Shown in pieces: positions 2,363 to 8,023 of a DNA stretch of 64,000 nt. The translations under genes were made by a program, and so were the position numbers. The notes under the pieces are model-generated. The model was not told where the DNA came from. It ran no database searches and was given only the letters and a program-made list of their open reading frames with translations. The DNA lies in NCBI GenBank assembly GCA_021846275.1, contig JAJZBZ010000001.1, positions 310,001 to 374,000 on the forward strand. The letters are read 5' to 3'. Position 1 is the stretch's first letter. Every line of letters begins with the position of its first letter. The stretch is from Acidobacteriota bacterium (GTDB lineage Bacteria > Acidobacteriota > Terriglobia > Terriglobales > Acidobacteriaceae).

Positions 2363-2656
2363 GTGGTCAGAAGGCCCTGTGGAGGACAGAGGAAGAAGAG
2401 CCGTTTCAGCGAAGAGCGGATTGTAGGGATATTGAAGGAGTCGGAGGCAGGTGTTGGGACGTCGGAGGTTTGTCGCAAGCAGGGGATCAGCGAGCAGACG
2501 TTCTATCGCTGGAAGGCCGAGTACGGCGGTTTGGAAGTGAGTGAGGCGCATCGGCTGCGGCAGCTGGAAGAGGAAAACCGGAAGCTGAAGCAGTTGGTGG
2601 CCGAGCAGGCGCTGGACATCGTGGGTTTCAAGGAGGTGCTGGCAAAAAAATGGTAG
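2363..2656 (+). CDS. IS3-family transposase OrfA (HTH)
   Basis: 97 aa; RFSEERIVGILKESEAGVGTSEVCRKQGISEQTFYRWKAEYGG HTH followed by leucine-zipper-like EENRKLKQLVAEQALD; start codon uncertain. Confidence 0.9.
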   Translation: MVRRPCGGQRKKSRFSEERIVGILKESEAGVGTSEVCRKQGISEQTFYRWKAEYGGLEVSEAHRLRQLEEENRKLKQLVAEQALDIVGFKEVLAKKW

Positions 2657-3588
2657 GCTCGCAGGCCAGGCGAGAAGCCGTCGAGATATTTCGCGCAGCA
2701 GCGGAGTGTTCCCAGCGGCGAGCCTGCGGGCAGTTGGACATGGTGCGGGCGCTGATTCGCTATCAACCGCGTCCCACCCGATTTGCCGAAGCCAACGAGC
2801 GGTTGCGCATGCGTCTGCGCGAGCTGGCTGCGGAGCGGCGCAGGCGGGGATGCCGGCGGCTGCATGTTCTTCTCGAACGCGAGGGCTGGACGGTGAACAG
2901 CAAGCGGGTCTATCGAATCTATGTCGAGGGAAAGCTGAGGGTGAGTCGGCGCAGGCGCAGACGGCGTGCAAGCGCTGCGGCGCGTGTGCTTCTCGATGCT
3001 CCACGGCGCGGTAACGAGACGTGGACGATGGATTTCCTGCAAGACGCGCTGGCCTCGGGCCGCAAGTTGCGAACGCTGTCGATCAAGGATGCTTACACGC
3101 GGGAGATGCTGGCTATCGAAGTCGATGCTTCCTTGCCCGCACCGCGCGTGGTGCGGGTGCTGGAGAAGTTGCGGCAGCAGCGTGGACTGCCCGAGCGGAT
3201 CGTCATTGACAACAGAACCGAGTTCACCTCGAAGACGATGGACCAGTGGGCCTATGAGAACAAGGTCACGCTGCACTTCATCACGCCGGGCAGGCCGATG
3301 GAGAACGGCTACATCGAAAGCTTCCACGACAAGTTCCGCCAGGAGTGCCTCAACGAACACTGGTTTCTGACCCTGGACGACGCACGGAAGACAATTGAAG
3401 ACTGGCGAATCGACGACAACCAGGTTCGACCGCACAGCGCCCTCGGCTACAAGACGCCGGAGGAGTTTGCCGCTGGCTGTGCGAATGCGGAAAGCACAAA
3501 ACGCTTCCCACATTCGCACAGCCTCTACTACTGCGGGGATTTATCCCTGCTAAACTCAAACCCGGATGCTCTCACTTGCCCGGACTAA
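2650..3588 (+). CDS. IS3-family transposase OrfB (DDE integrase core)
   Basis: 312 aa; WTMDFLQDAL, VIDNRTEFTSKTMDQWAYEN, IESFHDKFRQECLNEHWF; overlaps orfA in the -1 frame. Confidence 0.92.
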   Translation: MVGSQARREAVEIFRAAAECSQRRACGQLDMVRALIRYQPRPTRFAEANERLRMRLRELAAERRRRGCRRLHVLLEREGWTVNSKRVYRIYVEGKLRVSRRRRRRRASAAARVLLDAPRRGNETWTMDFLQDALASGRKLRTLSIKDAYTREMLAIEVDASLPAPRVVRVLEKLRQQRGLPERIVIDNRTEFTSKTMDQWAYENKVTLHFITPGRPMENGYIESFHDKFRQECLNEHWFLTLDDARKTIEDWRIDDNQVRPHSALGYKTPEEFAAGCANAESTKRFPHSHSLYYCGDLSLLNSNPDALTCPD

Positions 3589-3605
3589 ACAAGGGGGGCA
3601 GGTCA

Positions 3606-3754
3606 TTTGCAACCAGATGGATTCGCGCTTCCAGTCTTTGAGCAGTGAAATGAGCACCCGCCATGACAGGGTTCACTCCGAGCTGCGCTCCCTGGACGGA
3701 GCCATCGGAGAACTCAAAAGGCGAATCGACACCATCACGAGACGAGAATCCTGA
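3606..3754 (+). pseudogene. 3' remnant of a small coiled-coil-like gene abutting the IS3 right end
   Basis: QMDSRFQSLSSEMSTRHDRVHSELRSLDGAIGELKRRIDTITRRES reads from just beyond the IS3 end; the ORF's apparent start (3566) lies inside the IS. Confidence 0.4.
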
Positions 3755-3849
3755 TTCTTTCTATCCTTCTTTGAAGGCCCACTTCGGCGGGCCTTCCATG
3801 AGAAGGCCGTGCTCAGTCAAGCACTTATTGATCCGGCCCTGAGACATTG

Positions 3850-4887
3850 CTACGCAGCCGCATAACATACATCTTTCTGACCGAAGTAGTTTTCCACTCG
3901 CTCTGGCTGTTTCTGGATGCTGCGGAGGGCGCTGATTGCGGTGCGGGTGAGGGCCAGTTTGTTTCTTGCCGGAGCAGCTTGGGTGACGCGCTGCTTCAGG
4001 TCGGCGTTGAGCAACTCGTCCGGATTCAGCTCCGGCGAGTAGCTGGGCAGGTAGAAGACCGCGATCTTCTCTTCGTTGTCGGCGAGCCACTTCTTCACCG
4101 CCTTCGAATGATGCGCGCGCAGGTTGTACAGAATCAGGAAAACCCTCTTGTTTCGCCCATGCACGAGCCGCTTCAGGAAGCCGATCAGGATCGTCGCATC
4201 CAGCGCGCCGGAGAAGACCTTCCAGCGCATCTCGCCCTTGTTGGTCACCGTCGAAATCACGCTCAGCCTGGACCGATTGGCGTTGGCCACGACCACCGGA
4301 GTCTTGGCCTTCGGCGCATAACCGCGGCCACGCACATCATCCGAGCGCAGCCCGGTCTCATCGCCCCACTGAATCTCCGCACCCTCTGCTTTCGCGGCTG
4401 CGGCGATCTTCGGATACTCCTCGTTGACCCACTTCGCAACGGCTTCCGGCGACGGCTCATCGGCTTTCTTCAGCGGTCGCTGAGGCGTGAATCCCCAGCG
4501 CTTCAGGTACTTGCCCATATTTCGTACTGTCAGGCGAATGCCGAACACCGCCTCGATCAACTCGCTCACCGCCTGGCGCGTCCACAACGCGTAGGTCATC
4601 TTCAGCTGGTCGGGCGTACGATCCTGAATCAACTGCTGAATCTTCTTCTCCTGTTCGGCGGTCAACATGCGCCCGGAACCCACCGGACGACCGGCGCGAT
4701 GAATGTTCACCGCTTTCCAGCCGCCCCTGCGATAGGACTTGTGCGCTTCCACTACCGTGTGGGTGGAAAGCTCGCACTGACGAGCCACTTCCCGCACGGA
4801 AACTCCAGCTTCGCGCATCTTGACCGCACGACGCCGACGCTCGTTCAACGCCGACTCTGGCAACTTCCGCGAATCGATCTTCTCCAT
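3850..4887 (-). pseudogene. IS630-family transposase, full length but with catalytic Asp->Tyr
   Basis: 345 aa with IS630 signatures (EIQWGDETGLRSDD, SPELNPDELLNADLK); second catalytic motif reads FLILYNLRAHHSK instead of the usual LILDNLRxHH. Confidence 0.8.
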
Positions 4888-5049
4888 ACCTTCTTAGACG
4901 CATAATCGCCAAGAAATGTTGCATACTATCTGGGCTGGATAAGTAATTCATCGGGCGCTGTCCTCAACATCTGTATTTTGCTGTAGAGTGACTTTAACCA
5001 CAACAACGAGGCGCGAGAGGAGCACTCTTCGCCCGGAAGGTTTGTCTTC

Positions 5050-6222
5050 ATGAGCAGGATCACGTCCATCTTTTTTAAAGAGAACCGAAAAAATAGTGTT
5101 TCCAAATCGGAGAACCCCGGGCATATTGGATCGCTGGATGGCATCCGAGGCGTGGCTATTCTAATGGTTTTTGCCGAACATTATGGTGACATAGCGGAGC
5201 ATACCCATTCCGCGCCGCTCCTGTTCATACAGCATTTGAAATCGACTGGATGGCTTGGCGTCGATCTGTTTTTCGCACTTTCAGGCTATTTGATCACGGG
5301 CATTCTCTGGAAAACGCGATCCGACAAAAATCGCGCCCGGAATTTCTATGCCAAACGTGTTCTGCGCCTGTTTCCGGTCTATTACGGTGTGTGGTTTTTT
5401 CTGCTCTGTTACAGTGCAATTACATCTATTGATTGGAATCCTCGCGTTTTTTTGGAATATCTCCTGTACGCGGGAAATTTTGCCGCGCCCTACCATATAA
5501 ACATAGGCCCCTTTCAGATCGTACATTTTTGGTCTCTGGCGGTCGAAGAACAGTTCTATCTGATCTGGCCGCTGCTTCTTTGGAATATGCCCAGCAAAAA
5601 ATCTGCCATGCGCCTGCTCGCAGCTTTGTTTTCGGCTTCTGTCCTGATTAAAATTGCGTACTTGCTTTTACATGTGAATAATCATGCATATCATTATCTG
5701 CCAACGCACATGGAGGCAATTGCCTCAGGCTCGTTTATTGCACTGGCGAATGTGGAGCGGGCTGAAGTCTGGCAGCGCTATGCAAAGCTCGGACTCGTCA
5801 TTTCTTTACCAGCATTAATGATAGCGTTCGCTATATTCCATGGGCTTAATATGACGAAGCTTCCAGTGTTGATTGTAGCCTTTCCACTGGTTGCAATTGC
5901 CGCCAGTTCGTTGATCCTGCGCTCACAAAATCCAGATTCTTTCCTGTCATAACTGATGAACCTTCGCCTCCTTAAATTCTATGGCAAGGTCAGTTATGGC
6001 CTTTATATCTATCACAACTTATTACGCGATGTTCTTAAAAAACTGCTCTACACGCCGATTGACCATTTCCTTGGAAACCCTCTTCTTGCTGGAGCGATCT
6101 ACTTCCCGCTGGCGCTCATCTGCTGCACCCTGATCGCAGTTCTCAGTTTCAATTTTTACGAGAAGCCGTTTTTGAAACTGAAGCATAAGTTTGAAGACTC
6201 ACCTCGGACTCTGCATGTTTGA
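5050..6222 (+). pseudogene. Acyltransferase 3 family (OafA/YrhL-like), interrupted by in-frame TAA at 5950-5952
   Basis: ORF 5050-5952 (LDGIRGVAILMVFAEH, LFFALSGYLITGILW, HFWSLAVEEQFYLIWP) and ORF 5956-6222 (LKFYGKVSYGLYIYHNLLRDV) are in the same frame, separated by one stop. Confidence 0.88.
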
Positions 6223-6382
6223 ACTTGGCATCTGATGGAGCAAGTATTCGATGGCGGGCCGGGGCGTTGTTGCGTGAGCCGCTCGAAGCGGCTTGAGCGA
6301 TTTTTAGTAGCATTACTCTTTATCTACTAGAGCGTGTTTCATAAATAGATTCGGCCTCAAGCTAGGGACTTCCGGTGGGGTA

Positions 6383-7803
6383 GTGTCCAGAGTTTTTCGC
6401 ACTTTCGATTTTGCTTGTGATTCAGGAAGGTTGTTGGGTTGAAGTTGCTTTGCTTCTGGCCCCCCATGGGGGCCAGAAGCAAAGCGGGTCAGGCGATGGT
6501 CCGGACCTCGGCCAGCCGGTTCATCTGTAAATAGCGTTTGGTGCCCCACCTGGTCGCGGCCACATGTCGTAGGCGCGCGGCGACCAGCATCAGCGCCGAG
6601 TGGCCGTCAGGGAATGCGCCCACCACGCGCGTTCGTCGCCGTATCTTACGGTTCAGCCGCTCCATCGGGTTGTTGGTGCGGATCGAGCGCCAGTGCTCGG
6701 GCGGAAAGTCGTAGTAGCTCAGCGTCTCGCCCACTCCCGCTTCGACGATCTCCGCGGCCTTGGCCAGCTTCATCTCGCGCAGCTTAGCAACTACCTGGCG
6801 TGCTTTTTCTTTCGCCGCTTCGGCGTCTTCCTGCGCGTGGATCGCCTTCAGCATGGACGCCACCGCCTTCACCTTCCCGCTCGGCACCGCCGTCCACACG
6901 TTGCGATAGAAATGCACCACGCGGCGCTGCCACTTCGCTTCTGGATAAAACTCGGCCAGATTCTCCACCAAACCCAGGCACTTGTCGGAGACGAACAGCT
7001 CCACGCCCTTCAGCCCGCGCTGCTTCAACTCGCGCAAGAACGCCGTCCAACTCGGCCCATCTTCCCTGGCACCTTCGCTTACCCCCAGAATCTCGCGGTA
7101 GCCGCTCTGTGCCACGCCAATCGCAATCAGCACTGAGACGTTCTTCACCTCGCCGCCCCAGCTGCGCCTGAGCTACAGCCCATCGAGAAACACATACGGG
7201 AAGTCGCCCACCAGCGGCCTCTGCCGCCACTCGTCGATCTTGCCGTAGATCCTCTGGTTCAGTTCGCTCACCGTCGAGGCCGACACCCGCGTGCCCCACA
7301 ACGCTTGCGTGATGTCTTCCACACGCCGCACGCTCACGCCCGCCAGGTACATCTCAATCAGCGCTTCATCCACCGACGACTCACGGCGCCGGTACCGCTC
7401 GATGATCGCCGTCTCAAAGGGCAGCGTGCGCAGCTTCGGCACGGTCAGTGTCACTTCACCGGCCTCGGTCTGCAAATGCCGGTCGTAGCTGCCGGCACGC
7501 GTGTCCTTCCGGCCCTCGCTGCGCTCGTACCTGCGCGCCACGCATAGCCGGTCCGCCTCGGCATCAAGCAGCGCGTTCAACGTCTCCTCCACGGTCGACC
7601 GCACCACCTCGTCCAAATGCGCCTGAATGCGCCCCTCATCGATCTGAACTACGGGCCCCATCGCCGACACCATACCCCGACTCGTTCCAACTCCTGCTTC
7701 CACGGTTGATTCCATCGTCCTCGCTCCAGAGGTCTCGCTCCTCCTGCTTGTACCAACCTCCCAAGACCAATCGCAAATCAATTGTGCGAAAAATAGCGTA
7801 CGT
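6383..7803 (-). mobile_element. IS256-family-like element (approximate limits)
   Basis: Both transposase halves flanked by short inverted repeats TTTTTCGCAC (6393-6402) and GTGCGAAAAA (7784-7793); outer ends estimated. Confidence 0.65.
6489..7781 (-). pseudogene. IS256-family (mutator-type) transposase interrupted by in-frame TAG at 7173-7175
   Basis: ORFs 7781-7173 and 7148-6489 are in frame; the junction reads FPYVFLDGL*LRRSWGGEVKNVSVLIAIGV; downstream LFVSDKCLGLVENLAEFYPEAKWQRRVVHFYRNVW and NPMERLNRKIRRRTRVVG. Confidence 0.9.
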
Positions 7804-7827
7804 TATCCGTACGTTATCGATTCCAGT

Positions 7828-7916
7828 GGACGTGAATGGACATGTAAAGACGTAAAATGCAGCAATCCAGATGGATACGTATGATTCTATGGACGTTGGT
7901 AGACGTTCTTGGACAT
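7828..7916. repeat. Iteron-like RGACRT repeats, two groups of three at 10-bp spacing
   Basis: GGACGT 7828, GGACAT 7838, AGACGT 7848; GGACGT 7891, AGACGT 7901, GGACAT 7911. Confidence 0.75.
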
Positions 7917-7931
7917 TCTAGGAAGGGTTGC

Positions 7932-8023
7932 TGGCGGAGAGGGAGGGATTCGAACCCCCGATAGCCTTTCGACTATGGCTGATTTCGAGTCAGCTGCATT
8001 CAACCGGGCTCTGCCACCTCTCC
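7932..8023 (-). tRNA. tRNA-Ser(CGA), CCA encoded
   Basis: Reverse complement GGAGAGGTGGCAGAGC...GCTGACTCGAAATCAGC...GGTTCGAATCCCTCCCTCTCCGCCA; loop CTCGAAA gives anticodon CGA; long variable arm. Confidence 0.95.

Follow-up and report, generated by a model that had tools for sequence, protein, structure and literature searches.

The window, a 64,000-nucleotide stretch of an Acidobacteriota genome, contains an intact tRNA-Ser(CGA) gene on the minus strand (7932–8023, called with ARAGORN), which is the attB target considered here and holds a putative 15-bp att core, GAATCCCTCCCTCTC, inside its 3′ end (7937–7951, minus strand). Because the tRNA gene is on the minus strand, the array of short repeats at 7818–7924 lies downstream of its 3′ end, which it abuts. 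The original prediction placed six RGACRT hexamers here, in two triplets with exact 10-bp steps; we find all six at those positions, with 15 bases between the nearest (7911–7916) and the end of the tRNA gene. Read in the tRNA orientation (GCAACCCTTCCTAGAATGTCCAAGAACGTCTACCAACGTCCATAG...ACGTCTTTACATGTCCATTCACGTCCACTGGAATC), the conserved core is RTYC, mostly GTCC, rather than RGACRT. Weaker phased sites at +8 (7921–7924) and about +111 (7818–7821) from the tRNA end extend the phasing, so that the array comprises two runs of about four sites each, all direct repeats one helical turn apart. Block 1 (7891–7924, minus strand) has sites at +8, +18, +28, and +38, and block 2 (7818–7853, minus strand) at about +81, +91, +101, and +111; the 37-bp gap between them (7854–7890) is not assigned to a strand.

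This arrangement is rare. The paired form RGACRT-N4-RGACRT (RGACRTNNNNRGACRT) has four exact matches in the window, all in the array (7828, 7838, 7891, and 7901), against 0.09 expected from dinucleotide shuffles, and a whole-genome search gave two further, isolated matches in the rest of the genome. Three in a row occur once in the 3.3-Mb genome, namely in the array, so it is not the general repeat that the original prediction had named as the outcome that would count against it. Among 298 genomes of the order, seven contain the exact triplet. Besides the source genome these are three congeners, where it lies at tRNA-Ser, and three further genomes, where no tRNA was found near the match, a point against tying the array to tRNA-borne islands.

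On its far side the array meets an IS256-family element (6379–7807, minus strand), whose ends we set from relatives' matches stopping at the same bases. It has imperfect terminal inverted repeats, and no target-site duplication was seen. Its transposase (Transposase_mut, PF00872; 6489–7781, minus strand) is split by a stop into two ORFs of one frame, 7173–7781 and 6489–7148. At the array junction the IS terminus is present in an additional copy of 11 bp, CGTACGTTATC (7808–7818, repeating 7797–7807), and homology between the window and the congener G014 stops at about 7819. To the left of the IS, GC content is about 0.47 at 5000–6500. Within the lower-GC DNA of the interval 2650–6378 are an acyltransferase-3 gene and transposase-like ORFs of the IS3 and IS630 types, possibly leftover cargo.

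As the original prediction stated, no integrase gene stands beside the array: tblastn over C5:295000–374000 gave no match to the integrase and no remnant of it. The locus is therefore a relic and not a complete element. A search of the window for promoter-proximal repeats of the kind that would serve as Int arm sites found none. The search for a direct repeat marking a distal att site, also proposed originally, yielded no second copy of the core in the window or, outside tRNA genes, genome-wide. A fragment of a tyrosine integrase, interrupted by an in-frame stop, does occur 13 kb from the array (L016:9458–10599; C5:304.5–305.8 kb), on the 5′ side of tRNA-Gly(CCC), and belongs to a different integrase lineage.

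The ~115-bp block that follows tRNA-Ser in the window recurs after tRNA-Ser in congeners. It follows tRNA-Ser(CGA) in G005, G013, and G014 and tRNA-Ser(GCT) in G007, with block 1 conserved in all four. In G014 and G007 it is followed directly, on the same strand, by a P4-type tyrosine integrase of 410 aa that is intact, starts about 197 bp past the tRNA, and has the domains Arm-DNA-bind_3, Phage_int_M, and Phage_integrase; the homologous block thus lies between tRNA and intact integrase at both loci (L064 and L062). The same phased array beside an intact integrase is what the original prediction had suggested looking for, and its central idea, that the scar was left by an integrative element with this tRNA-Ser as its attB, is well supported by these congeners. 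Along one strand, intact relatives show first the tRNA end with its core, then block 1, the gap, block 2, promoter-proximal repeats that would be the Int arm sites, and finally int.

The relative G003 has another island at tRNA-Ser(CGA), with a 76% identical integrase, an AlpA-family protein (PF05930, E = 1.9e-14), and two genes that, judged by their sequence alone, are a probable type III restriction-modification pair. Here the distal direct repeat is present: the 15-bp core GAATCCCTCCCTCTC recurs 9.7 kb away (L065:12057–12071). G003 also has a terminator-like hairpin between the phased blocks (L065:2370–2412, z = −3.5), which is absent from the inter-block gap of the window (z = +0.5). A similar hairpin looks present in the tRNA–int intergenes of several other relatives, which raises the possibility that a terminator for the tRNA arrives with the element. 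A search of IMG/VR gave two distant relatives of the integrase, at 32% and 46%.

No empty tRNA-Ser(CGA) site by which the insertion might be dated was found in close relatives; every readable one carries something there. G013 (C11, L063:17590–17822) has at its tRNA-Ser(CGA) the whole array followed by the int leader as far as the start codon, with the integrase absent, and is a further orphan attL. The genes to the left of this tRNA in G013 (L063) are collinear with contig C3 of the source genome (L139, C3:212000–228000) rather than with the window. At least one lineage has therefore undergone a rearrangement at this locus, and the scar lies at a chromosomal breakpoint that separates G013 from the source species.

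The phasing extends to a wider set of loci. We compared 27 non-redundant tRNA-to-integrase intergenes, mostly from Acidobacteriaceae, with integrases of 40–100% identity and tRNAs for Ser, Val, Leu, Pro, and Glu. Self-identity peaks at lags of 10 (z = 19.6) and 20 (z = 7.8), where the z-scores come from mononucleotide shuffles of related loci and do not represent independent trials. A DTYC motif occurs at +8 from the tRNA end in 20 of the 27, at +18 in 23, and at +28 in 21; farther out it is found at +81 in 13 and at +82 in 7. A matrix trained on the other loci scores the window at 21.0, a value reached by none of 1000 shuffles, and control tRNAs score at most 6.5. Nearer int, many relatives carry a separate family of GGGGGTAY repeats at about +116, +128, and +150. 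The phased feature is not universal, since the matrix scan found no such array at leuX-intB of E. coli K-12.

The source genome holds a second scar of the same kind. At C8:141.4 kb (L138:3337–4224), tRNA-Ser(GCT) is accompanied by a phased array, arm-like GGGGTAT repeats, and a truncated integrase. This remnant is a 202-aa ORF whose match ends after about 178 aa; no more of a P4-type integrase is left in it than the N-terminal domain and a portion of the middle one.

Given that integrase, promoter-proximal repeats, and distal att core are all absent, we think it likely that the array is the orphan attL of a P4/KplE1-type island in tRNA-Ser(CGA), with sites that were most likely bound by excisionase. 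Published work on KplE1 has characterised five TorI sites, grouped in two blocks, along with four IntS P′ sites (PMC2951348). Mapped onto the MG1655 sequence and counted from the end of argW, the TorI pentamers lie at +8, +28, +71, +81, and +91. Every one of the acidobacterial offsets +8, +18, +28, and +81 is filled in KplE1, an outcome seen in 0 of 200,000 shuffles; the array matches the mapped TorI sites in offset and motif class, but this class was chosen after viewing both sets, so the match is supportive and not decisive. In the attP of ICEMlSymR7A, RdfS binds a ~40-bp region just upstream of an Int arm site (PMC11963761), and the sites of recombination directionality factors (RDFs) are typically direct repeats spaced by one helical turn (PMC7498355). 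Taken together, the KplE1 offsets and motif, the ICEMlSymR7A layout, and the one-turn repeats lead us to see the excisionase as the probable ligand of the array and Int as that of the lost repeats. The phased array is thus most likely the excisionase-binding part of attL, the identity of its binding protein being judged from position and motif, and the GGGGGTAY repeats, lost from the window, would fit the layouts of Int arm sites. Some observations speak against an excisionase: known RDFs bind a loose consensus, whereas the motif of the array is fairly sharp, and KplE1 scores weakly with the acidobacterial matrix, although its offsets agree.

The original prediction instead labelled the hexamers as arm-type sites of the integrase, which within the same orphan attL would make the array an integrase-binding region. 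Arm sites of the lambda type can follow one another in tandem at steps of about 10 bp, and the array is tied to a P4-type integrase family in the set of 27 intergenes. We nevertheless consider this label unlikely to be correct. In KplE1, the nearest mapped system, the RDF sites occupy the offsets of the array and the arm sites lie nearer int; the separate promoter-proximal repeat family, absent from the window, resembles the IntS arm consensus of ICEMlSymR7A (TGKTGGTATC; PMC11963761) and fits Int arm sites; and the far end of the G003 island, the only one that could be defined, has GGGGGTA repeats without the phased GTCC block. A quite different possibility is that the attL is the live end of a larger surviving island whose integrase has moved or acts in trans. 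Another P4-type integrase is present at tRNA-Glu (C5:503k), one AlpA gene lies at C5:490.7k, and the lower-GC DNA at about 5000–6500 could belong to such an island. This seems improbable to us, as the resident tRNA-Glu integrase is just 40% identical to the cognate integrase, the Int arm repeats are gone from the window, and neither the window nor, outside tRNA genes, the genome has a second core.

Phased repeats also occur in host operators, and an operator or general intergenic repeat would need no tie to integration. We rejected this reading, which has next to no probability, because the array is unique in its genome and tied to integrase loci: it is absent after control tRNAs, and in relatives an integrase directly follows it.

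Returning to the orphan attL, its history may be sketched as follows. A P4/KplE1-type island would have entered the 3′ end of tRNA-Ser(CGA). A small winged-helix excisionase of the TorI/AlpA type would have occupied the 10-bp-phased GTCC sites head to tail, one monomer per turn. This would bend attL ready for excision, and the protein would probably repress the int promoter as well. The simplest account of the present state is that an IS256-family element inserted where block 2 ends on its outer side and that an adjacent deletion or recombination then took away the integrase gene together with its arm repeats and the distal core, leaving an attL that would be unable to recombine on its own. 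The original prediction spoke of an excised or decayed element. Precise excision is unlikely, because it would have taken the array too, and it is the decayed alternative, with IS-associated loss of int, that agrees with our observations.

These results suggest that the former landing site of an island is recognisable even after its integrase gene has been lost, and they advise caution, as helically phased repeats beside a tRNA need not be integrase arm sites. It seems to us an even question whether P4-type elements share a tRNA-anchored excisionase register (+8, +18, +28, followed six or seven turns later by a second block) across Acidobacteria and Enterobacteria while the arm motif diverges. 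If they do, phased arrays could be used as fossils for finding islands without an integrase. Such a register common to phyla would be mildly new and is open to simple DNA-binding assays; the orphan attL itself belongs to a known kind.

Among known systems, the attL of KplE1 (CPS-53; argW-intS-TorI, E. coli K-12) is likewise built from a tRNA, an att core, and two phased RTYC-like blocks (+8/+28 and +71/+81/+91), with arm sites nearer int and int on the same strand. Its integrase, IntS, shares 37% identity with the one in G014 and contains the same three Pfam domains. KplE1 differs in its target, argW and not tRNA-Ser, in a second block that starts one turn nearer, and in its arm motif (GGGTAAAA/TTTTACCC); with the acidobacterial matrix it scores weakly (34 of 1000 shuffles reach its score). 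It also retains int and TorI genes and is an excisable prophage, whereas the window locus lacks int. ICEMlSymR7A, whose arm consensus is similar to the GGGGGTAY repeats of the intact relatives, differs in being a large conjugative element with a phe-tRNA target and RdfS sites that show no clear consensus. In E. coli K-12, CP4-57 (ssrA-intA), for which AlpA is the RDF, also has phased sites downstream of its target RNA gene when scanned with the same matrix (1 of 1000 shuffles reach its score); unlike the window locus, it has a tmRNA target, an offset of +19 versus +8/+18, and an intact integrase.
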